From Pseudomonadales bacterium (GTDB lineage Bacteria > Pseudomonadota > Gammaproteobacteria > Pseudomonadales > Azotimanducaceae): a stretch of DNA of 64,000 bases. The stretch lies in contig JAESSY010000096.1 of the NCBI GenBank assembly GCA_016763855.1, positions 1-64,000 of the forward strand. The letters are read 5' to 3'. The position numbers and the translations under genes were made by a program. Below, in pieces: positions 1 to 17,564 of the stretch. The notes beneath the pieces are model-generated. The model had not been told where the DNA came from. It made no database searches and worked only from the letters and a program-made list of their open reading frames with translations. The first letter of the stretch is position 1. Each line of letters opens with the position of its first letter.

Positions 1-290
1 CCAACTTGCCAGCCCCAAGCGGTATCGTCACCTCCCATGTATTTTAGAGCGGTACCTTGAGGAACACTGATAGGATCGCCAGTGACAGGGTGCTGTCCTA
101 CAACGTTATTCTTAGGTGCTGCTGCGCCAAAGCTGCCTTCGCCGATGATGTAACGGATACCACCACCAACGCTGATTGATTCATTGACTTTGTAAGCTGC
201 GTTTAAGTTCGCTTCCATTGTCGTTACGCTTGCTTCGTTACCGAAGTGTGATGCACCAAAGCCTTTACCTAAATCGGTTTCCACTGCAAT
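1..290 (-). CDS. FadL-family outer membrane transporter, internal fragment
   Basis: Reading leftward, this stretch encodes about 96 residues typical of the long-chain fatty acid porin FadL/OmpP1 family. A strand resembling TDLGKGFGAS is followed by the beta-strand pair LNAAYKVNESISVGGGIRY and later a DDTAWGWQVG segment, which matches the family pattern AYKvndklSvGaG ... ddtafGw. FadL proteins form a 14-stranded outer-membrane barrel that takes up hydrophobic compounds. The C-terminal part lies off the left edge of the window. The N-terminal part is absent: family-like sequence stops near 288-290, where sequence of an unrelated gene on the other strand begins. The frame stays open for some distance past the junction, but the residues there are only antisense to the serine hydrolase. 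The family call is fairly secure, the substrate is unknown. Confidence 0.75.
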   Translation of the reverse strand, partial: MAVETDLGKGFGASHFGNEASVTTMEANLNAAYKVNESISVGGGIRYIIGEGSFGAAAPKNNVVGQHPVTGDPISVPQGTALKYMGGDDTAWGWQV

Positions 291-654
291 GATGGCAGCA
301 GGTGGGACCTGGGATGAGAAAGAATATTTCAGTTCCGAAGCTTGGGCAGCATTGCATGAAGGGCCTGTCAAAGCAGATATGGGATTCGTGACCACGACGT
401 TTACACAAGGCGGATTGGCGCTCTTTACTGAGTGTGATCAAAATAGTACACAGCTTGATAGAGCGATTAATACGGGTAGAGAAGGATTTTATGGATGGAT
501 GGGGCTGGGTGGTTCTTTGTTTCAGTGGCATCCAAAACACAAAATAGGATTTGCTTACGTACCCACCTCGTTAAACGTAATTGATATTGTCAATGAGAGA
601 GGCAAGGCCTACCAAACTGAGGTATTAAAGTGTGTTGCAGATATCGGCAGATAG
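289..654 (+). pseudogene. Serine hydrolase (beta-lactamase/PBP-like), C-terminal fragment
   Basis: The product resembles the C-terminal end of the class C beta-lactamase-like serine hydrolases (beta-lactamase superfamily, LACTB-like): MMAAGGTWDE, then ALHEGPVKADMGF, and near the end YGWMGLGGSLFQWHP followed by IGFAYVPTSLN. These are the strand and loop elements next to the third catalytic motif in the fold. The SxxK and YxN motifs expected in the first 250 residues are missing because the gene starts abruptly at the junction with the FadL fragment. The ATG pair at 289-294 corresponds to internal residues of the family, not to a natural start. No ribosome binding site is seen. Probably a non-functional remnant, or one half of an assembly chimera. 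Confidence 0.7.
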
Positions 655-692
655 GCAAAGTTGTTATAAGCTGTGCATAATAGCTCCTATTT

Positions 693-1574
693 ATGCTAAC
701 GGTGAACGTAATGCCTCCAGCTCAATACATTAAAATCACAAAGGAGACCTACGTCAAGCTAGGTTATCCCCCCTATAGATGGTTTCACGCGCCAAGCGAG
801 CCATCTTTTGTACCTGTTTCTAAACCCTTGTCCGAGAGCCGCTTGGGTATGATCACAACCGCGGGCACATACTTACAAGGGCAGCTTGCATATTACTATC
901 AAGATGATACTAGTATCCGAGAGATACCCAGTGACGCTTCTATCAGTAAGATTAGATTTTCACACATTACTGAAAATTATTTAGTGGAAGCGAGGCAAGA
1001 TCCGAACACTGTGTTTCCATTACAAAGTTTGAAGGCCTTGGGAAAAGAGGGGTTTATCGGTGAACTTGCTGAGGAATACTTATCTTGTATGGGGGGGATT
1101 TATTCACAAAGACGGGTTGTAGATGAACTCATTCCCAATCTTGAAACGGCGGTTAAAAGGCAGAAGCTAGATTTACTGCTCTTAGTGCCATTGTGACCCG
1201 TCTGCCATCAGACCGTGAGTCTGTTAGCAAGACATTTTGAATCATTGGGCTTGCCGACCTTAATTGTTGGCAGTGCCCTCGACATACTAGAATCCGGACG
1301 ACCTCCAAGAGCTCAGTTCTTAGATTTTCCGCTGGGTTTTGAAACAGGTCCCTTCAAAGATAAGCATAGACAATTAGAGGTTGTGCGTGAAGCGCTAAAA
1401 GGATTTGAGTCTTTTAAATCGTCGGGTATTCGCCCCCTACCATTTAGATGGCCAGAGGGTTGGGATCTAGTGAAGAACCGTGAAGGCAAAACCGATAATG
1501 ATCAACGATCTCCCCGAAATACTGAGCCGCAGTATCAAACTGACGAGGATCGTTGGGCGGCAGAAAACCAATAA
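693..1574 (+). CDS. GrdB/PrdB-like selenoprotein (UGA 1194-1196 read as Sec)
   Basis: Two apparent reading frames (693-1196 and the part after it) are one gene in a single frame, interrupted only by UGA at 1194-1196. The joined product is 293 residues and matches the proteobacterial relatives of glycine/sarcosine/betaine reductase component B and proline reductase PrdB. Visible marks are YPPYRW (25-30), SRLGMITTAGTY (49-60), a VFPLQSL segment, and after the UGA the segment PVCHQTVSLLARHFE and GLPTLIVGSALDI. In homologues the position of the UGA is a cysteine in a CPVCH motif, so decoding gives Sec168-P-V-Cys171, a UxxC redox motif. A stem-loop with the bacterial SECIS geometry follows the UGA. 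The start is either ATG 693 or ATG 711, and neither has a clear Shine-Dalgarno. Substrate unknown. The selA/B/C/D genes are not in the window. Confidence 0.85.
1197..1225 (+). promoter_or_regulatory. Bacterial SECIS-like stem-loop after in-frame UGA
   Basis: CAGAC (1209-1213) pairs perfectly with GTCTG (1219-1223) around a five-base loop CGTGA (1214-1218). The loop begins 17 nt after the UGA and has G in its second position followed by U. These features fit the published bacterial SECIS consensus: a short upper stem, G among the first two loop bases, and a loop 16-37 nt downstream of UGA. A competing hairpin GTCTG/CAGAC (1200-1213) uses part of the same bases. SelB binding is inferred. Confidence 0.7.
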
Positions 1575-1750
1575 TGTTTGTATCATTGGTTAGATCCCAC
1601 TACCCACATTTACTAAAATGGTCGTAGCGCGAACACATTAAAGAATGATGGGATGATGCAAACAATACATTTGAAAATATGATGCGTGTCAAGATATGAC
1701 CGATGTACTGGCTTGCTGTAAAATAAAGAATACCTAATAAGGAGTTCAGT

Positions 1751-2659
1751 TTGGGAACATTATTCAAAGCAATTGTTTGTGCCTGCCTGCTATCGATACC
1801 GTTTCTATCTTCAAGCAGTGTTGCTAAAACTCAAGTTGTCATGCTAGGTACGGGGACGCCCAATGCAGATCCAGAAAGGTCTGGTCCCAGTGTTGCGTTT
1901 GTCGTCAACGATACACCTTACCTGATTGATTTTGGCCCAGGTGTTGTGCGGCGAGCAGCTGCAGCATATAAAAAAGGGGTTGAAGGATTAGATGTCAAAA
2001 AATTGAATACCGCATTCGTGACTCACTTGCATTCGGATCACACTAGCGGATTTTCCGATTTAATCTTGTCGCCTTGGGTATTAGAGCGGGAATTGCCCCT
2101 TAAGGTTTATGGGCCGCAGGGAATTAAATCAATGGCAGAGTACATTGTTGCTGCGTATTCAGCGGATATCAATATGCGCCTCCATGGCGCTCAGCCATCC
2201 AATCCTAATGGCTATAAAGTCATTGCGCAGGAAATTGAACCCGGTCCCATTTATGCTGATGAGAATGTTAAGGTCGAGGCTATATCGGTCAAGCATGGTT
2301 CGTGGAAACAATCATTTGGATTTAAATTTGTGACTGCGGATAAGGTCATTGTCATTTCAGGAGATGCAGTCCCTAGTGAATCAATTATTCAAGCTTGTAA
2401 TGAATGTGACATCTTAATCCATGAGGTTTATTCTGACGCTGGCTTTAAAACAAGACCTAAAGAATGGCAGAATTATCATTCCAAATACCATACTTCTGCA
2501 ACGGAGCTGGCAGCCATCGCCAATAAATCGAAGCCTAAACTGCTAGTACTCTATCACCAATTATACTGGGGGTTTGATGATAAAAAATTACTGGAAGAAG
2601 TGGGCGCTAGTTACAAGGGTAAGATCGTTAGCGCAAGTGATTTAGATATATATGAGTAG
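1751..2659 (+). CDS. Exported MBL-fold metallohydrolase (RNase Z/arylsulfatase-like)
   Basis: A 302-residue metallo-beta-lactamase-fold protein with a signal peptide (hydrophobic stretch in residues 5-24, then SSSVAK). The core is GTGTPNADPERSGPS at 33-47, the zinc motif HLHSDH at 92-97, a KHGS histidine, SGDAVP and a late LVLYHQLYW histidine. The overall plan is that of the RNase Z-like / AtsA-like branch, but the export signal argues against tRNA processing and for a periplasmic hydrolase of unknown substrate. The start is TTG 1751, supported by a good AAGGAG-type site about 8 bases upstream (1737-1743) and by the complete signal peptide. It stands alone between the selenoprotein and the polysaccharide genes. 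Confidence 0.85.
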   Translation: MGTLFKAIVCACLLSIPFLSSSSVAKTQVVMLGTGTPNADPERSGPSVAFVVNDTPYLIDFGPGVVRRAAAAYKKGVEGLDVKKLNTAFVTHLHSDHTSGFSDLILSPWVLERELPLKVYGPQGIKSMAEYIVAAYSADINMRLHGAQPSNPNGYKVIAQEIEPGPIYADENVKVEAISVKHGSWKQSFGFKFVTADKVIVISGDAVPSESIIQACNECDILIHEVYSDAGFKTRPKEWQNYHSKYHTSATELAAIANKSKPKLLVLYHQLYWGFDDKKLLEEVGASYKGKIVSASDLDIYE

Positions 2660-2684
2660 CCTTTAAGCGGAATTTTACAACAAA

Positions 2685-3722
2685 ATGCCAGATCTAAAAG
2701 TACTTGTCTTGTTTGCTTTAGTCTTTGCGTTGAGCTATCTAGGCTCAAGGCTTTATCAATACTATGCCATTAAAATTGGCCTGTTGGCTAATGTGAATGT
2801 ACGATCTGCACATGAGTTACCTACCCCCACCGGATCAGGACTGGTACTACTAAAACTATTTTTGGTCTCAATTATTTTGCTTTGGTATTGGCAGCTAATC
2901 ACGGTCGAAATGTTACTGGCTTGTCTCGGGCCAATTTTTGTTGGTGCGGTTGGTTATGTCGATGACAAAAGTGATCTGCCGGTCAAGGTGAGAATGCCGC
3001 TGTATATGTTTGCAGCAGTTTGGAGTGTTTATATCCTAGGGTTTCCCGTTATCAATATTTCAGGGATGGAAATTGATTTGGGACTTTTGGGTTTGGTCTT
3101 GGGTGTCATGTCTTTATTCTGGCTTCAGAATCTATTTAATTTTATGGATGGGGTTGATGGTATTGCCAGCATTGAAGTCGTGTTTGTTTGTTTTTCGGCA
3201 GTGTGGATTGGTTGTGAGGCTTTCAATGGGTTAAGTAGTGGTTGGTCTCTACTTGGTATCTTGATTGGAATATTGGCCCTAGGATATTTAATGACTAACT
3301 GGCCTCCTGCAAGGATGTTTATGGGTGATGCTGGAAGTAACTTCTTTGGTTTAATGTTGGGTGTATTTGTTCTGGGAAATGAAGCTATTTCGGTTTGGGT
3401 ATGGATGATCTTGTTGAGCCAATTTATTGTTGATGCCTGTTTGACTGTTTCAATACGATTGATAAAGCATCAAAAAATTTATGAATCTCATAGCCAGCAC
3501 GCTTACCAACATCTGAATCGTCGGTATGGCACAAATCACGTTTTGCAGCTGATGATAATAGTTAATTTCATATGGCTATTACCGATCGCCTACCTAGCCC
3601 ACGAGTTTCCTGACATGGGCTTTATTCTGTTACTATTAGCATCTTTACCTTTAGTACTCCTGTATTGGCTCAGTGGGGCAGGTAAGACAGAACCTCGGAT
3701 GGCACGCCTAAGAGTAAAGTAA
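2685..3722 (+). CDS. Polyprenyl-phosphate sugar-1-P transferase (WbpL/WecA-like, GT family 4 MraY type)
   Basis: This 345-residue polytopic membrane protein, with roughly ten hydrophobic helices, belongs to the MraY/WecA superfamily. It should transfer a sugar-1-phosphate from a UDP-sugar to undecaprenyl phosphate on the cytoplasmic face and so start O-antigen or capsule repeat synthesis. Signature loops are GYVDDKSDLP (DD motif), LFNFMDGVDGIA, ARMFMGDAGSNFFG and the late QHAYQHLNRR histidine motif. It lies 25 bases after the metallohydrolase and its TAA overlaps the ATG of the WbpM-like gene by one base. The pairing WbpL-like/WbpM-like is the one seen in Pseudomonas B-band O-antigen loci. 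The exact sugar (FucNAc, QuiNAc or GlcNAc) cannot be told from sequence. Confidence 0.88.
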   Translation: MPDLKVLVLFALVFALSYLGSRLYQYYAIKIGLLANVNVRSAHELPTPTGSGLVLLKLFLVSIILLWYWQLITVEMLLACLGPIFVGAVGYVDDKSDLPVKVRMPLYMFAAVWSVYILGFPVINISGMEIDLGLLGLVLGVMSLFWLQNLFNFMDGVDGIASIEVVFVCFSAVWIGCEAFNGLSSGWSLLGILIGILALGYLMTNWPPARMFMGDAGSNFFGLMLGVFVLGNEAISVWVWMILLSQFIVDACLTVSIRLIKHQKIYESHSQHAYQHLNRRYGTNHVLQLMIIVNFIWLLPIAYLAHEFPDMGFILLLLASLPLVLLYWLSGAGKTEPRMARLRVK

Positions 3723-5653
3723 TGGAATCCAAGATAACGGACAAATCAAAACGAACCATCATGATGATAGGTGATGGCATCCTCCTGCCATTGGCATTGT
3801 GGGTATCGGTTGCACTTCGATATGGGGATTTTCAAAAGGATATTGCGCCCTTTTGGTGGTTGTTTTTGGTTGCGGCTGTTACGGGAGTTTTCTCCTTGCA
3901 AAAATTGGGTTTGTACAGAGCCGTCGTCCGATACATTGGCCCAAGTTCTATGATACCTGTTGTTCAAGGCGTCACGGTTGCAACCATTGCCATTTCACTA
4001 ACAGCTTATCTGAGTCAGGCAGTCACTTTTCCCCGGTCAGCTCCCATTATGTTCTGGTTTATATCCATCTTGATGATCGGCGGCAGTCGTATTGTGATCA
4101 GAGCCTATTTTTACGGTCTGAATAATAACTATTTGGTGAGGGAGCCCATTGCCATTTATGGTGCGGGAGATTCAGGGGCACAGTTAGCTATTACCTTGCT
4201 CAACGGTAGTGACTTTATGCCGGTTGCCTTTATAGATGATAACCGCGCTTTGAGGAAAAATATCATACATGGTATTAAAGTTTATGACGCGGCTCATATC
4301 GATCGCTTAGTGAAAGAATTTGGCATTAAGCAGATCTTTCTTGCTGTACCCTCAGCGACCGCCGAGCAGCGTGGTAAGATATTGAACAAATTGGCAGCCC
4401 TGCCCATTTTGATTCAAACGGTACCTACATTTGCAGACATCATGGCGGACCGTGCAATTGCAAATGAAGTACGAAGTGTAGATATTGCAGATTTACTCGG
4501 CAGAGAAACCGTACCGCCAAATAAAACATTGCTGGAATCCTGCATTAAGGGTAAGTCAGTTTTAGTCACCGGCGCTGGAGGAACCATTGGTTCAGAGCTT
4601 TGCCGAAAAATATTATCCCTTAAGCCAATGCGATTGGTTTTGTTTGATAATTCCGAGATATCGCTTTATACAGTCGAGCATGAGCTAAATAATCTGTGTG
4701 CAGCTGAAACGGATATCGCTGTATTGTTAGGTTCAATTCTAAATAAATCACAATTGTCGAAAGTGATGGCTGATTTTAATGTGGATACCGTATATCACGC
4801 AGCGGCGTACAAACATGTCACTATTGTAGAGGGAAATGTCATAGAAGGTATTCGAAACAATGTTCTGGGTAGTTGGAATGTTGTCAGTGCAGCAAGTGAT
4901 AATCGTGTCAAAGATTTTGTCCTTATTTCCTCCGATAAAGCTGTACGCCCAACCAATGTGATGGGAGCGACAAAAAGACTGGCTGAACTAATTGTCAAGG
5001 CCCATGCTGAAGAATCTGAATTTACCTGTTTTAGTATGGTTCGTTTTGGCAATGTACTCAGATCTTCAGGTTCTGTCGTCCCCTTATTTGAGAAACAGAT
5101 TCTCGCTGGTGGACCCGTGACTGTTAGGCACAAAGACGCGACAAGATTTTTTATGACAGTGGCTGAGGCGGCAGAATTAGTCATACAGGCGGGGTCTATG
5201 GCAGAAGGCGGCGAGCTGTTTGTTCTCGATATGGGCGAACCCGTTAACATCGATGATCTAGCACATAAGATGATTCACCTTCACGGTAAAAAAGTGGGTC
5301 AAGATGAAGAAGGATTTGAATCCGATGCTATAGAAATAGAGTATGTTGGATTACAACCAGGCGAAAAGTTATATGAAGAGCTGATTATAGGTCAGGCTAT
5401 TTCAGGAACACAACACACCAAGATTATGATGGCAGACGAAGAATTTCTTTCCCTCGGTGCGATGACAGATATCTGTTCAAGCTTAAGCAATGCTTGTGAT
5501 AGTGCGGATTATAAAACCGTCAGAAGCTTACTAGAGAAGCATGTTAGTGGCTACAAGATGCACCTGTCTAAAACCGATCCCTCTATCGCTGCGGAGCAAG
5601 CCCGGGATCTTAGGGAAAACAATATTACCCCTTTCGTTAAGAAAGAGGACTAA
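3722..5653 (+). CDS. Nucleotide-sugar 4,6-dehydratase, WbpM/CapD/FlaA1 family, membrane-anchored
   Basis: The protein has 643 residues: four N-terminal membrane helices (about 10-115), a CoA-binding-like Rossmann domain with GAGDSGAQL (about 147), then the catalytic short-chain dehydrogenase domain with GAGGTIGSE (about 284). The usual YxxxK is replaced by the WbpM-type motif; SSDKAVRPTNVMGATKR carries the lysine and a Met in place of Tyr. Family members convert UDP-GlcNAc to the 4-keto-6-deoxy sugar, the precursor of QuiNAc/FucNAc residues. Length matches WbpM (about 665). The gene is translationally coupled to the upstream transferase, and its 3' end overlaps the possible start region of the next gene. 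Confidence 0.92.
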   Translation: MESKITDKSKRTIMMIGDGILLPLALWVSVALRYGDFQKDIAPFWWLFLVAAVTGVFSLQKLGLYRAVVRYIGPSSMIPVVQGVTVATIAISLTAYLSQAVTFPRSAPIMFWFISILMIGGSRIVIRAYFYGLNNNYLVREPIAIYGAGDSGAQLAITLLNGSDFMPVAFIDDNRALRKNIIHGIKVYDAAHIDRLVKEFGIKQIFLAVPSATAEQRGKILNKLAALPILIQTVPTFADIMADRAIANEVRSVDIADLLGRETVPPNKTLLESCIKGKSVLVTGAGGTIGSELCRKILSLKPMRLVLFDNSEISLYTVEHELNNLCAAETDIAVLLGSILNKSQLSKVMADFNVDTVYHAAAYKHVTIVEGNVIEGIRNNVLGSWNVVSAASDNRVKDFVLISSDKAVRPTNVMGATKRLAELIVKAHAEESEFTCFSMVRFGNVLRSSGSVVPLFEKQILAGGPVTVRHKDATRFFMTVAEAAELVIQAGSMAEGGELFVLDMGEPVNIDDLAHKMIHLHGKKVGQDEEGFESDAIEIEYVGLQPGEKLYEELIIGQAISGTQHTKIMMADEEFLSLGAMTDICSSLSNACDSADYKTVRSLLEKHVSGYKMHLSKTDPSIAAEQARDLRENNITPFVKKED

Positions 5654-6800
5654 CGGTCTGGCTCTCCCTCGAAAAATAAAAGTACTACAGGTCTATAGGA
5701 CTTATTTCCCTGACTCTCAAGGTGGTGCTGAAGAAGTCATCAGGCAAATTTGCCGAAACAGCCTTGCACACGAGATCGAAAGCCGTGTATTTGTTCCAAG
5801 CGCTTCACCGTATCCGAAAGATATCATTGTCGATGATGCTAAGGTGGTTCGCGTTAAATTGAATTTTGAAATTGCATCTTGTGGGTTCTGCTTGACGGGT
5901 TTGAATGAGTTCAAAAAACAAGTTGAGTGGGCGGACCTTGTTCACTATCACTTTCCTTGGCCCTTTGCCGATTTGATGCATCTCGCTGTGTCACAAAATA
6001 AACCGACAATAATCACCTATCACTCTGATATCGTGAGGCAGAAAATGGTAGCAAGAATATATTCTCCATTGATGAATCGATTTTTATCATCAATGGATAG
6101 AATTGTTGCGACGTCTCCAAATTATCTAAAATCTAGCCCGGTTCTTGGGCAATATCAAAATAAGGTTTCAGCGATACCCATCGGTATTGAGGAAGCATCC
6201 TATCCGGATGTAGCCAAAGATATTTTAACAACTTGTAAATCAAGATATGGTGAGGGATTTTTCTTTTTCATTGGTGTGCTGCGATACTACAAGGGATTAC
6301 ATTTGTTAATAGATGCCTGTAAGAACGCAGATTTCAAGGTCGTCATAGCAGGTGCAGGACCACTTGAGCAAAAGCTAAAATCACAGGTTAAAGATTTAGG
6401 TTTGAATAATATTCAGTTTGCGGGACGAATTAGCGACGAAGAAAAAATGGCAATGTATCAACTTTGCCGAGGTGTTATATTTTCTTCCCACATTCGTTCA
6501 GAGGCTTTCGGGGTTACGCTACTTGAAGGCGCAATGTGTAGCAAGCCGTTGATAACTGCTGAGACAGGCACGGGGACTAGTTTCGTCAATAAGGATGGCG
6601 AAACGGGTATTGTTGTCGAAGCAAATAGTGCTAAGGCTTTAGGTGATGCGATGCAGGTGCTTCATGCAGATGCAACAATGGCCGAGAACATGGGGCGAAA
6701 TGCTCGGATGCGATATGAGCAATTGTTCACGGGTAAAAAAATGGGCGAGCGTTACGCTGGACTATATCGAGAAGTCTTGGATGAAGCACAATGCGTATAG
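5541..6800 (+). CDS. GT4-family glycosyltransferase, start uncertain
   Basis: A GT-B fold glycosyltransferase of family 4. The N-terminal part starts with KIKVLQVYRTYFPDSQGGAE, the acceptor-side Rossmann start, and the C-terminal part has the nucleotide-sugar site SEAFGVTLLEGAMCSKP (E-x7-E motif). It should add one sugar to the lipid-linked repeat unit. The start is a problem. Homology begins at about 5673, just after the WbpM stop codon, but no ATG, GTG or TTG exists in frame between 5541 and that point. ATG 5541 would overlap wbpM by 113 bases and add about 40 unrelated residues. A CTG at 5658 has a GAGG-type site nine bases upstream and is the best-placed alternative. The stop overlaps the next gene by 10 bases. 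Confidence 0.85.
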   Translation: MLVATRCTCLKPIPLSLRSKPGILGKTILPLSLRKRTNGLALPRKIKVLQVYRTYFPDSQGGAEEVIRQICRNSLAHEIESRVFVPSASPYPKDIIVDDAKVVRVKLNFEIASCGFCLTGLNEFKKQVEWADLVHYHFPWPFADLMHLAVSQNKPTIITYHSDIVRQKMVARIYSPLMNRFLSSMDRIVATSPNYLKSSPVLGQYQNKVSAIPIGIEEASYPDVAKDILTTCKSRYGEGFFFFIGVLRYYKGLHLLIDACKNADFKVVIAGAGPLEQKLKSQVKDLGLNNIQFAGRISDEEKMAMYQLCRGVIFSSHIRSEAFGVTLLEGAMCSKPLITAETGTGTSFVNKDGETGIVVEANSAKALGDAMQVLHADATMAENMGRNARMRYEQLFTGKKMGERYAGLYREVLDEAQCV

Positions 6801-7867
6801 GTATTGATGCTCGTCCACTCACTGTGCCCATGTTTGGGATTGGTCGATATACCCTCTGCTTACTTAAAGAGTTAACTAAGGTTGAAGGCAATTCTTGGTA
6901 TCTATATGCTGACCGGCCCATTATTCATCCTATCTTTGGTGACAATATCGTCATTCGTGAATACCCTTCACACAAGCGTTGGTTAAGCCTATACCGCACT
7001 CAGGTGCCTTTTGCGCGATGGGCAAAAAAAGATAAGTTGGACGTATTTTGGTCGCCTAGGCATCACTTACCGTTAATGTTAGATAAGTCTATCAGGAGCG
7101 TTTTAACCATACATGATCTTGTCTGGAAAAAATATCCCGAGACAATGTTGAGAGAAAATTTACTAGTTGAGAAATTGTTGATGCCAAGAAGCTTGATAAA
7201 GGCAGATGCGGTCATCGCGGTTTCAGAGTCAACAAAAAATGATCTAGTCGAGTCCTATCCATTGATAGAGAGTAAACTGTCAGTGATATATGAAGCGATT
7301 GATCGCGTTGGAGTTTCAGAAAGCAGACTGCTCGATAAACCCTATTTTCTGTGTGTGGGTACCCAGGAACCTCGAAAAAATTTACGTACTTCCATTGCTG
7401 CTTTCCACCAATATCGAGCAGCAGGGGGTAACCGCCATTTGGTCGTTGTTGGGGGAAAGGGTTGGAACCTAGACGATCCGCAGCAGGGACTAAAACAAAA
7501 TCAAGAATTCATCCATATATTAGGCAGGGTGTGTGATGAAGACTTAATGACCTTCTATCGTTTTGCCGATGCCTTTGTATTCCCTTCTCTTTATGAGGGC
7601 TTTGGTCTGCCGCCCCTTGAAGCCATGCAATTTTCTGTGCCTGTGATCAGTTCAAATCGTTCTTCTTTGCCAGAGGTTGTGGGTGAGGGGGGTATATTGG
7701 TCGATCCGATGTCGAAAGATCAGATATGTGATGCCATGATGAAAATAAGCCGAGACCAGGCCTTTCGAAATAGCCTAGGAGAAAAAGCATTTGAGCAATC
7801 GAAGAAGTTTAGTTGGCTAAAGGCGGCGAAAGAAACCTTAGACGTTTTTAAGTCTCAGCTTCCCTAA
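6791..7867 (+). CDS. GT4-family glycosyltransferase (mannosyltransferase-like)
   Basis: This 358-residue enzyme starts with MRIGIDARPLTVPMFGIGRY, typical of the WbaZ/MtfB-like branch of GT4, has a central VGTQEPRKNL motif and ends with the donor site SLYEGFGLPPLEAM and the segment GGILVDP. The family often uses GDP-mannose or GDP-rhamnose, which agrees with manC in the same block, but donor and acceptor are inferred. Its start overlaps the end of the preceding glycosyltransferase by 10 bases, so the genes are co-transcribed from at least 2685. The 3' end overlaps the convergent polymerase gene by 20 bases. Confidence 0.9.
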   Translation: MRIGIDARPLTVPMFGIGRYTLCLLKELTKVEGNSWYLYADRPIIHPIFGDNIVIREYPSHKRWLSLYRTQVPFARWAKKDKLDVFWSPRHHLPLMLDKSIRSVLTIHDLVWKKYPETMLRENLLVEKLLMPRSLIKADAVIAVSESTKNDLVESYPLIESKLSVIYEAIDRVGVSESRLLDKPYFLCVGTQEPRKNLRTSIAAFHQYRAAGGNRHLVVVGGKGWNLDDPQQGLKQNQEFIHILGRVCDEDLMTFYRFADAFVFPSLYEGFGLPPLEAMQFSVPVISSNRSSLPEVVGEGGILVDPMSKDQICDAMMKISRDQAFRNSLGEKAFEQSKKFSWLKAAKETLDVFKSQLP

Positions 7868-9062
7868 GTCGACTATTTTCCCTTAGGGAGACTGTATGCA
7901 TTAAAGCGATGGCATAAGGCAGCCAAACTAGGAGCCAAACAAAATTAACCTTTGTTAACAATTTGTCTCCATCGACGAGTAAGCAAGTTAGCCCATAGGT
8001 CATCAGAGGCAGGGCATATATCAGATAGGGTTTCGGCTCGATTTTTAACCATGACCAGTATAAGTGACCAATAAAACCCATTAATAAACCCAAACCTAAC
8101 AAGCCTCCATAGAATAAGGTAGCAAGGTAAATACTGTGTGGATGTTCAAACACGTAATCTTGATACTTAATTACTTCTTCAGCATTTAGACCGTGGCCCA
8201 GAATATAAGGGCCAGAAAAAACAGATGAAAGAACTTCAGTCCATATCTCAATGCGAAAACTGGTGGATCGTCTTAGTATTTCTTCGTGAAATCCAAACTT
8301 CCAAAGGACTACTAGAACAACAATAAGACAAAGCTGTGTGATGATCAGAATTCTACGTTTGCGGGAGGTACTGAGATCAGGAAGAAGGTATAACAAAGAA
8401 AAACTGGCAACAAAAAGTCCAATCCAAACACTTCTTGTGCCGGTGTAAATCAGCCCAGTTAACAAAATGATGATGGAGATCCCCAATAAGATTTTCTGGT
8501 GATGGTCTTTCGTACTTGCATACCGGGAAAGTGCGAGCATGGCAATTGCACCATAGGACAGTGCGCTCACAACGGGATTGTACAGTCCACCAAGCGCGTA
8601 AAGCCTAGGTTCATCTAAGGGCTGATAATCTAGGGCATGGAAAACGTAGATGGCATAGCAGACGGAGAGGCAAGCTGACACGATGATTATCAACATAAAC
8701 ACGCCGAAAAAGCCCTTGAATCGCTGTTCAAGTACAGAAAGGCTCACAACAAAACAGAGGATAAGCAAACCATAACCCAAAAATAGCGCGCTGCTTAGTA
8801 TGGATTGATCCATTCTCAAATTTGATAGTGCGAGGTAAGCTAAGAAGAGTGTGAGAAGTCCAAGAGACAATCGATTTTGTTTAACGGTCTGCCGTATTTC
8901 ATGGCTTGCGACTAAACTGAGCACGCAAAGCGCAATGATGTAAGTAGGAAAAAAGCTAACTCTGCTCGATTTGCCTAAAAAGAAAGTGACGGGTAATAAC
9001 AAAGCCGCACCATATAGGCAGTAGTATCGTAGATCTAATAATTTTGAAAATAGCGGTGACAA
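7848..9062 (-). CDS. O-antigen polymerase/ligase (Wzy/WaaL superfamily)
   Basis: A 404-residue, almost entirely hydrophobic protein with about eleven predicted membrane helices. A periplasmic loop in the C-terminal half contains GHGLNAEEVIKYQDYV followed by FEHPHSIYLATLFYGG, which resembles the conserved His-containing loop of the Wzy_C/O-antigen ligase family. It either polymerises repeat units or ligates them to lipid A-core; sequence alone does not separate the two. It is on the opposite strand from the other glycan genes and converges with the upstream glycosyltransferase. The first start in frame is TTG 9062, with only a weak purine stretch in front of it, so the true start may differ. 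Confidence 0.85.
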   Translation of the reverse strand: MSPLFSKLLDLRYYCLYGAALLLPVTFFLGKSSRVSFFPTYIIALCVLSLVASHEIRQTVKQNRLSLGLLTLFLAYLALSNLRMDQSILSSALFLGYGLLILCFVVSLSVLEQRFKGFFGVFMLIIIVSACLSVCYAIYVFHALDYQPLDEPRLYALGGLYNPVVSALSYGAIAMLALSRYASTKDHHQKILLGISIIILLTGLIYTGTRSVWIGLFVASFSLLYLLPDLSTSRKRRILIITQLCLIVVLVVLWKFGFHEEILRRSTSFRIEIWTEVLSSVFSGPYILGHGLNAEEVIKYQDYVFEHPHSIYLATLFYGGLLGLGLLMGFIGHLYWSWLKIEPKPYLIYALPLMTYGLTCLLVDGDKLLTKVNFVWLLVWLPYAIALMHTVSLRENSRLREAET

Positions 9063-15695: not shown

Positions 15696-17564
15696 GTGAC
15701 TAATCAACTTTCAAAAATTGATATCTATCTAGAACAACAAGAAAATGCTGATTTACTGCGTTTTATTACCTGCGGCAGCGTCGATGATGGCAAAAGTACT
15801 TTAATTGGTCGTATGTTGTATGAGGCCCAGATGATCTTTGAGGATCAGGTGACGGCATTACAAAATGACTCTAAGAAAATGGGCACGCAAGGTGGAGATA
15901 TTGACTTTGCACTACTTGTGGATGGACTAGCTGCCGAGAGAGAGCAGGGAATCACAATTGATGTAGCCTATCGATTCTTCAATACCGACAGACGTAAATT
16001 CATCGTCGCTGATACTCCAGGTCATGAGCAGTACACGCGCAATATGGTCACGGGAGCATCCACGGCTGATGTCGCTGTCATTCTGATTGATGCAAGTCAG
16101 GGGGTGTTAGTTCAAACAAGGCGTCACGCGTTTATTGTTTCGCTATTGGGCATCAAACATATTGTGCTTGCCGTAAACAAGATGGATTTGGTTGAGTTTG
16201 ATCAGGAAGTATTCACAAAAATTGTAGATTCCTTTAAAGCATTTGCAAGTAATCTGAAGTTCGAATCAATAACAGAAATCCCGCTGTCTGCGCTTAAGGG
16301 TGACAACGTTATTGAGCGTTCTAAGCAGACTAGTTGGTATGTTGGGCCTACCTTGCTGGGTTATCTGGAAACTGTTGCTGTAAGGCAATCGCAAATAGAT
16401 CATCCGTTTCGTTTTCCCGTTCAGTGGGTGAACAGGCCAAATTCAGATTTTCGCGGTTTCTCTGGTACCGTCGTCGCAGGCTCAATTGAAACGGGTCAGT
16501 CAATTCGAGTTTTACCTTCTGGCGAAGTCGCAAATGTGAAAGAAATTGTGCTCTATAAAGATTTTCTGAACAAGGCCATAGTGGATCAGGCAGTGACTAT
16601 TACGCTGGATCACGAAGTCGATGTATCAAGAGGAGATGTTTTGGTCGCAGCGGATGATCCTTGTGAGGTCTCTGATCAGTTTGAAGTTTCACTTGTTTGG
16701 ATGGATCAGGAAAAAGGCTTCGTCGGTAGATCTTATTGGTTGAAAATCGGCACTCAGCGCGTGAATGCCACCATCACGGATATCAAATTCAAGTACAACG
16801 TTAATACTTTTGAACATCTTTCAACCCAAGATTTGTCCCTCAATGACATCGGTGAGGTTACTTTGAGTTTGGATAAAGCGGTTGCGTTTGAGACCTATGA
16901 TAAGTGCAAACCGATGGGAGCATTTGTGCTGATAGATCGATACAGTCATTCAACTGTGGGGGCAGGCATGATTAATTTTGCCTTGCGTCGCGCACAAAAT
17001 GTCCACAGGCAAGCGCTAGTCATTGACAAAAAGGCTAGAGCAAAATTAAATGGTCACCCTGGTCGCGTACTGTGGTTTACAGGCTTAAGCGGTTCAGGTA
17101 AATCAACAATCGCAAATGCGCTTGAACAAGTTTTACACGAGCGGGGTATTCGAACTTACATTTTAGACGGCGATAACATTCGTCATGGTCTTAATAAGGA
17201 TTTAGGTTTTACCGATGCAGATCGTGTTGAAAACATTCGCCGCGTAGCGGAGGTCGCAAGGTTAATGGCAGATGCCGGCATCGTCGTATTAACTTCATTT
17301 ATTTCCCCATTTAGATCCGAGCGCGATATGGCGCGAAGCTTATTTGAACCCAGCGAGTTTGTTGAGATCTATGTCAATGTGTCATTAGAAGTAGCAGAAG
17401 CGAGGGATGTGAAAGGGCTATACAAAAAGGCGCGAAGAGGCGAGCTGCCGAATTTCACCGGCATAGATAGCGATTATGAAATTCCTGAGAATGCAGAGAT
17501 CGATCTTGCCGCCGCAGACTTAACGATTGATCAATGTGTTGAACAGATACTCAAGTATATTTGA
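15696..17564 (+). CDS. cysNC: Sulfate adenylyltransferase subunit 1 / APS kinase fusion
   Basis: A 622-residue CysN-CysC (NodQ-type) fusion starting with GTG 15696. The GTPase half (about 1-440) carries [17 protein letters not shown], the CysN-typical [32 protein letters not shown] and NKMDL. The kinase half (about 445-622) has [32 protein letters not shown] and the region [15 protein letters not shown]. Together with CysD it converts sulfate to PAPS. PAPS can serve cysteine synthesis or sulfation of surface polysaccharide; no PAPS reductase or sulfotransferase is in the window to decide. Its stop overlaps the front of the DUF2061 gene's leader. Confidence 0.96.

Follow-up and report, generated by a model that had tools for sequence, protein, structure and literature searches.

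Selenoproteins named after the PrdB subunit of D-proline reductase have been described from marine metagenomes. A 2005 study of the Sargasso Sea reports proline reductase prdB as the third most abundant known selenoprotein family, with 42 genes and a UxxC motif (PMC1088965). The GOS survey of 2008 lists 235 PrdB selenoproteins (pfam07355, UxxC) and 110 Cys homologues, and places the family among the most abundant ones (PMC2398784). D-proline reductase is also counted among the prokaryotic selenoproteins in two further papers (PMC13188914, PMC1794560). The gene analyzed here shares with the marine proteins Sec in a UxxC motif and the existence of Cys homologues (PMC1088965, PMC2398784), and it likely belongs to the same set. 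It is a further member of a selenoprotein kind that had already been described. Among the papers that our literature searches listed, none was a functional study of this PrdB-like subfamily.

The gene lies on the forward strand of a 64,000-nucleotide stretch of contig JAESSY010000096.1 from a Pseudomonadales bacterium (Azotimanducaceae); this whole stretch is referred to as the window. A preliminary description of the DNA had placed a GrdB/PrdB-like gene at positions 693-1574, with a reading frame interrupted solely by UGA and with unbroken homology on both sides of it. The frame indeed contains a single TGA, at 1194-1196, which would encode Sec and is followed at 1203-1205 by TGC, the second Cys of a UPVC (UxxC) motif. 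The tblastn alignments to three related loci run through the TGA, and each of them has TGA at the same place (L021, residues 7-291, 73.1% identity; L022, residues 7-291, 72.7%; L023, residues 7-287, 70.2%). Throughout this study, residues were numbered from ATG 693, by which Sec is residue 168, the second Cys is residue 171 and the protein is 293 aa long. The proposed extent held as a single gene on the plus strand, except that translation probably begins a little further in: ATG 711 is the more likely start codon and ATG 693 a less likely alternative, because from ATG 711 the Sec becomes residue 162, the same number as in relatives. L021 and L022 each have a sole ATG that is far enough upstream, and from it Sec is residue 162, as it is from one of two ATGs in L023; three other loci (L110-L112) have further possible starts and are less clear on this point. 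Sequence inspection also points to a possible ribosome-binding site, GGTGA at 701-705 on the plus strand, 5 nt upstream of ATG 711. The resulting CDS, 711-1574, encodes 287 aa including Sec, followed by a stop codon. From the sequence evidence presented below, we consider it highly probable that the region is one PrdB-like selenoprotein gene, in which UGA 1194-1196 is translated as Sec within the UPVC motif.

The surroundings of the gene were also inspected. A match to a FadL/OmpP1 outer membrane protein (PF03349) covers positions of about 3-290 on the minus strand and breaks off near 290. An ORF at 289-654 starts at this break and is similar to the C-terminal portion of a 428-aa protein (the locus L172 in genome G417, 61% identity), and its first 26 residues recur with 100% identity at the end of another contig of the same genome (C81). 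Positions 1-366 of the window thus look like a misjoined contig end, which leaves the selenoprotein gene unaffected. Downstream of the gene, positions 1751-2659 encode an MBL-fold hydrolase that scores above the PF12706 cut-off and is related to RNase Z and GntH, with scores below those NCBIfam cut-offs. A tblastn search with this hydrolase against the 150 loci of our set (L021-L170) returned only the window's own copy.

To what extent the product is PrdB was judged by profile scores and by its potential partners. The best NCBIfam match was PrdB itself (TIGR04483, E = 1.8e-32), and the window protein is homologous to the annotated PrdB of Terrisporobacter over residues 26-253 with 28% identity, residue 168 being aligned with the TGA codon at 4000-4002 of that record (L178) and the second Cys following three residues on. 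These matches, together with the name PrdB given to marine UxxC selenoproteins that are probably of the same kind (PMC1088965 and PMC2398784), would favor a D-proline reductase subunit working with PrdA on D-proline. However, the score of 112.7 bits is far below the TIGR04483 cut-off of 300, whereas the Terrisporobacter PrdB scored 422.6 and a PrdB from an unannotated Acetoanaerobium record, which has PrdA beside it, scored 417.7. The window protein is also longer than the Terrisporobacter PrdB (293 versus 241 aa). PrdA was found in none of 34 genomes, the window's own (a draft of 95.96% completeness) and 33 related ones, although the same search detected it in both positive-control records; an earlier search, run without a positive control, likewise found PrdA in none of 11 genomes, three of them Cys-form. 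Inspection by eye of the ORFs listed for window positions 1-9000 and for 12 loci revealed no prd-type neighbors. A proline reductase subunit in the proper sense is accordingly improbable; the protein is PrdB-like, and a proline reductase function is not supported for its subfamily.

Homology to GrdB was limited to a weak similarity around the Sec motif. The E-values were 0.00045 for PF07355 (20 bits, cut-off 22) and 4.8e-06 for TIGR01918 (25.8 bits, cut-off 65.45), and the window protein is shorter, at 293 aa, than these profiles of 347 and 431 positions, respectively. The GrdB partner PF09338 was found in none of 30 genomes in a search run without a positive control. The label GrdB/PrdB-like from the preliminary description therefore applies in a loose sense, as the best match is PrdB, but not in a strict one, because all matched models scored below their curated cut-offs and PrdA was not found. 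In an alignment of the window protein with 65 related proteins picked from 82 non-redundant rows (alignment A2), all 66 matched TIGR04483 at E-values up to 0.01, and D103, P109, residue 168 (Sec or Cys), P169, C171, E183, R206, L214 and G215 were invariant. The UGSC (seleno)protein family NF041046 was matched weakly by four A2 members and by the two true PrdBs, from Terrisporobacter and Acetoanaerobium, a hint that the region around the Sec motif may have a common origin in UGSC and PrdB/GrdB.

In a single genome, a lone stop codon within intact homology looks identical whether it encodes Sec, truly ends translation in a gene undergoing decay, or is a sequencing error for TGC or TGT. The corresponding codon was compared across 150 loci, the window's own copy included (L101); two of them, L131 and L166, stop short of it. 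Cys or Sec had been expected at this position, and all 148 covering loci had one or the other: 62 TGA, among them the window and 61 further loci, and 86 Cys codons (65 TGC and 21 TGT). A different residue class, which the preliminary description had named as evidence against a selenoprotein, did not occur in these 148 loci. None of the 62 TGA loci had a second stop in the aligned stretch, and the half of the gene downstream of the UGA was still conserved. Among the Cys loci, one of the three that contain a stop (L095, at query position 94) was excluded from the protein alignment.

The loci come from searches of different scope. A search of genome_contigs confirmed 125 relatives, of which the best 80 were kept. 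Counting the window's own, relatives were present in 8 of 369 genomes in the class search, in 25 of 390 in the order search and in 30 of 36 from the order of genome G091; these counts are not a census, because a distant search with a single query favors close relatives. One TGA was present in 35 of the 37 matches of the order search, the exceptions being the match in G560, which lies at a contig end, and that in G744, which has the Cys form. Five genomes (G433, G572, G743, G806 and G815) each carried three to five PrdB-like matches, 18 of 19 with one TGA; the family is expanded in its Sec form in these genomes. Two paralogues with a TAA, in G796 and G797, show nothing that points to recoding of this codon: their motif codon is TGC, and the TAA comes close to the C-terminal end, at query position 270. 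The loci L108, L109 and L133 form a distant subgroup in which the motif reads UPAC or UPLC and continues with TRxVS, in place of UPVC-HQTVS, and L132 (CPNC-SRTVC) looks like a Cys form of this subgroup.

The hairpin that had been proposed as a SECIS element, CAGAC-CGUGA-GUCUG at 1209-1223 on the plus strand, is present, and its loop begins after 17 nt from the UGA. The first two loop positions were said to be G, but they are C and G, so only the second agrees. The claimed agreement with bacterial SECIS features nevertheless stands, as the hairpin is directly downstream of the UGA, has a small apical loop containing G, and is conserved and covarying. Folding of 1194-1240 gave -12.6 kcal/mol (z = -2.59), a modest value that 4 of 200 shuffled sequences equaled. 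A loose bSECIS-like rule demands five Watson-Crick pairs, a loop of 3-14 nt, G in loop position 1 or 2 and a distance of 16-37 nt. This rule was satisfied behind 228 of 2728 TGAs on both strands of the window (8.4%), so the hairpin by itself settles little; the decisive evidence is its conservation and covariation. An Rfam search of window positions 1-4000 returned no match at E-values up to 5.

Conservation was evaluated by resampling codons synonymously from the usage of each gene itself. Of the 53 distinct TGA sequences, 48 form the five-pair stem (G-U allowed), where this recoding predicts 3.98; among the 73 distinct Cys sequences the stem forms in 4, where 1.58 are predicted. For the window sequence alone the expectation was 0.07. 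The remaining 5 of the 53 TGA sequences lack the full stem in this register. G in loop position 1 or 2 was present in all TGA and all Cys sequences and is therefore uninformative. The mean folding energy did not separate TGA loci (-13.45, 8 loci) from Cys loci (-14.83, 81 loci), which weakens a naive argument from energy, whereas the specific stem does separate the two forms.

Covariation was examined in a gap-free alignment of the 62 TGA loci (A1; 53 distinct rows), using a seven-pair version of the stem. Paired cells made up 93.3%, versus 83.7% in shuffled alignments and at most 34.2% when the stem was slid. Changes on both sides of a pair occurred in 40 cells versus 10.8 in the shuffles, a number reached by none of 500, although these counts are inflated by related rows. 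Double changes were found at 4 of 7 pairs, only slightly above the 2.6 in shuffles (14 of 500 reached it); two of the seven pairs never vary, and the outermost pair deviates only through unpaired cells (12 of 53). Columns 18-28 changed from G-C to A-U, C-G or U-A and columns 19-27 from A-U to U-A or G-C, and such double changes occurred in several subgroups. Having passed the synonymous-recoding and covariation tests, the hairpin at 1209-1223 is, at the level of sequence, a SECIS element.

A selenoprotein had also been expected to imply selA, selB, selC and selD elsewhere in the genome, and the absence of this machinery would have counted against it. All four genes were found in the same assembly: selA on contig C12 at 14971 (528.6 bits), selB at 16122 of the same contig, overlapping the end of selA (452.2 bits, cut-off 242.25), tRNA-Sec with anticodon TCA on contig C115 at 62207 (64.9 bits, cut-off 47), and selD on C115 at 64977 (270.5 bits, cut-off 125). 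SelD forms the C-terminal portion of a 722-aa frame, whose N-terminal portion reads as oxidoreductase-like. The window is on a different contig (C62), and the link between gene and machinery therefore rests on correct binning of the assembly (207 contigs, completeness 95.96, contamination 1.09). In a survey of 37 genomes, selA was detected at E-values up to 1e-20 in 7 of 8 TGA-form genomes versus 10 of 29 Cys-form genomes (Fisher p = 0.014), where 29 of the 80 genome_contigs loci were entered, the Cys class was assigned by the loci examined, further copies were searched in 3 of the 29 Cys genomes, and one genome with both forms (G265) was counted as TGA. The TGA genome in which selA was not found, G369, is a MAG of 2.6 Mb. 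Near other copies of the gene, selA lies 3.1 kb after L108 (G361) and 1.5 kb after L109 (G265). The gene adjoining L102 (G091) encodes a product that by eye begins like the fused SelD, and selA is 13 kb off on the same contig.

With TGA shared at the exact same codon, the downstream half conserved, the stem maintained through compensatory changes and the Sec machinery present, a pseudogene or sequencing error is very improbable. The reading as two separate genes without Sec is hardly credible: standard ORF calling does yield 693-1196 and 1215-1574, the two broken proteins that had been predicted, but 83 of the 86 Cys homologues are free of stops across the aligned stretch including the junction, the other three (L095, L167 and L168) have their stop elsewhere, and the second ORF, from GTG 1215, begins past the UPVC motif, in which positions 168, 169 and 171 do not vary within A2.

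To see how the Sec and Cys forms of this selenoprotein family are related, a quick tree was built from the 66 A2 proteins (37 Sec rows and 29 Cys rows) with the Sec column omitted. The distribution of Sec and Cys needs three changes on this tree, at least two of them forced by the starred branches, compared with a mean of 21.8 when shuffled. The window protein belongs to a group made up of 16 Sec rows (SH-aLRT 89). All but one of the 29 Cys rows fall in one group of 30, together with two Sec rows, and this group stands beside 12 Sec rows. The tree suggests that Sec is the older state, and no more than suggests it because it is midpoint-rooted and has long branches. Known relatives also include alphaproteobacterial proteins annotated as 'Glycine/sarcosine/betaine reductase selenoprotein B family protein', two plasmid copies of which share 35.6 and 35.1% identity with the window protein. 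As in the window, the Roseomonas copy has no prd genes annotated beside it; unlike the window, all 77 related genome_contigs loci L024-L100, the majority of them from Bradyrhizobium and other Alphaproteobacteria, carry Cys in the motif. On the Roseomonas plasmid (L176, 4001-6353), the PrdB-like gene has a neighbor that is annotated as protein adenylyltransferase SelO.

The AlphaFold model of the protein (pLDDT 94.9) places Sec between a strand (161-165) and a helix (169-184). A strand-helix junction of this type is a frequent place of thiol redox centers. Sequence searches of the PDB revealed no relative with the single protein and one non-significant match with a profile (E = 0.5). Foldseek and VIA-align gave generic alpha/beta matches only (best E = 0.024, best Z = 7.8), and since the rows shown contain no PrdB or GrdB structure, they are uninformative on the fold. 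Reductase chemistry is thus proposed from homology and motif, as the structure searches gave no standout relative. In the mechanism that we infer, SelA and SelD would serve the production of Sec-tRNA, and SelB loaded with Sec-tRNA(Sec) would bind the hairpin at 1209-1223, so that the ribosome reads UGA 1194-1196 as Sec. The UPVC motif would then sit just before the helix in an alpha/beta fold, where the selenol could attack an electrophilic substrate and Cys171 resolve the intermediate before thiol-dependent recycling. On balance, the product appears most likely to be a stand-alone reductase, a view we hold with some reserve.

These results correct the annotation of the locus, replacing two broken ORFs with one selenoprotein. 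We lean, with similar reserve, toward placing the gene in a separate, PrdA-less subfamily of Sec reductases, gammaproteobacterial by the names of its nearest relatives, that has gone by the name of proline reductase but acts on another substrate, with Sec as the probable older form and the Cys forms, mostly from Alpha- and Betaproteobacteria, nested inside. That PrdA turned up in none of the 34 genomes searched suggests that for marine selenoproteins of this kind the name 'proline reductase' should not be taken as a statement of function.
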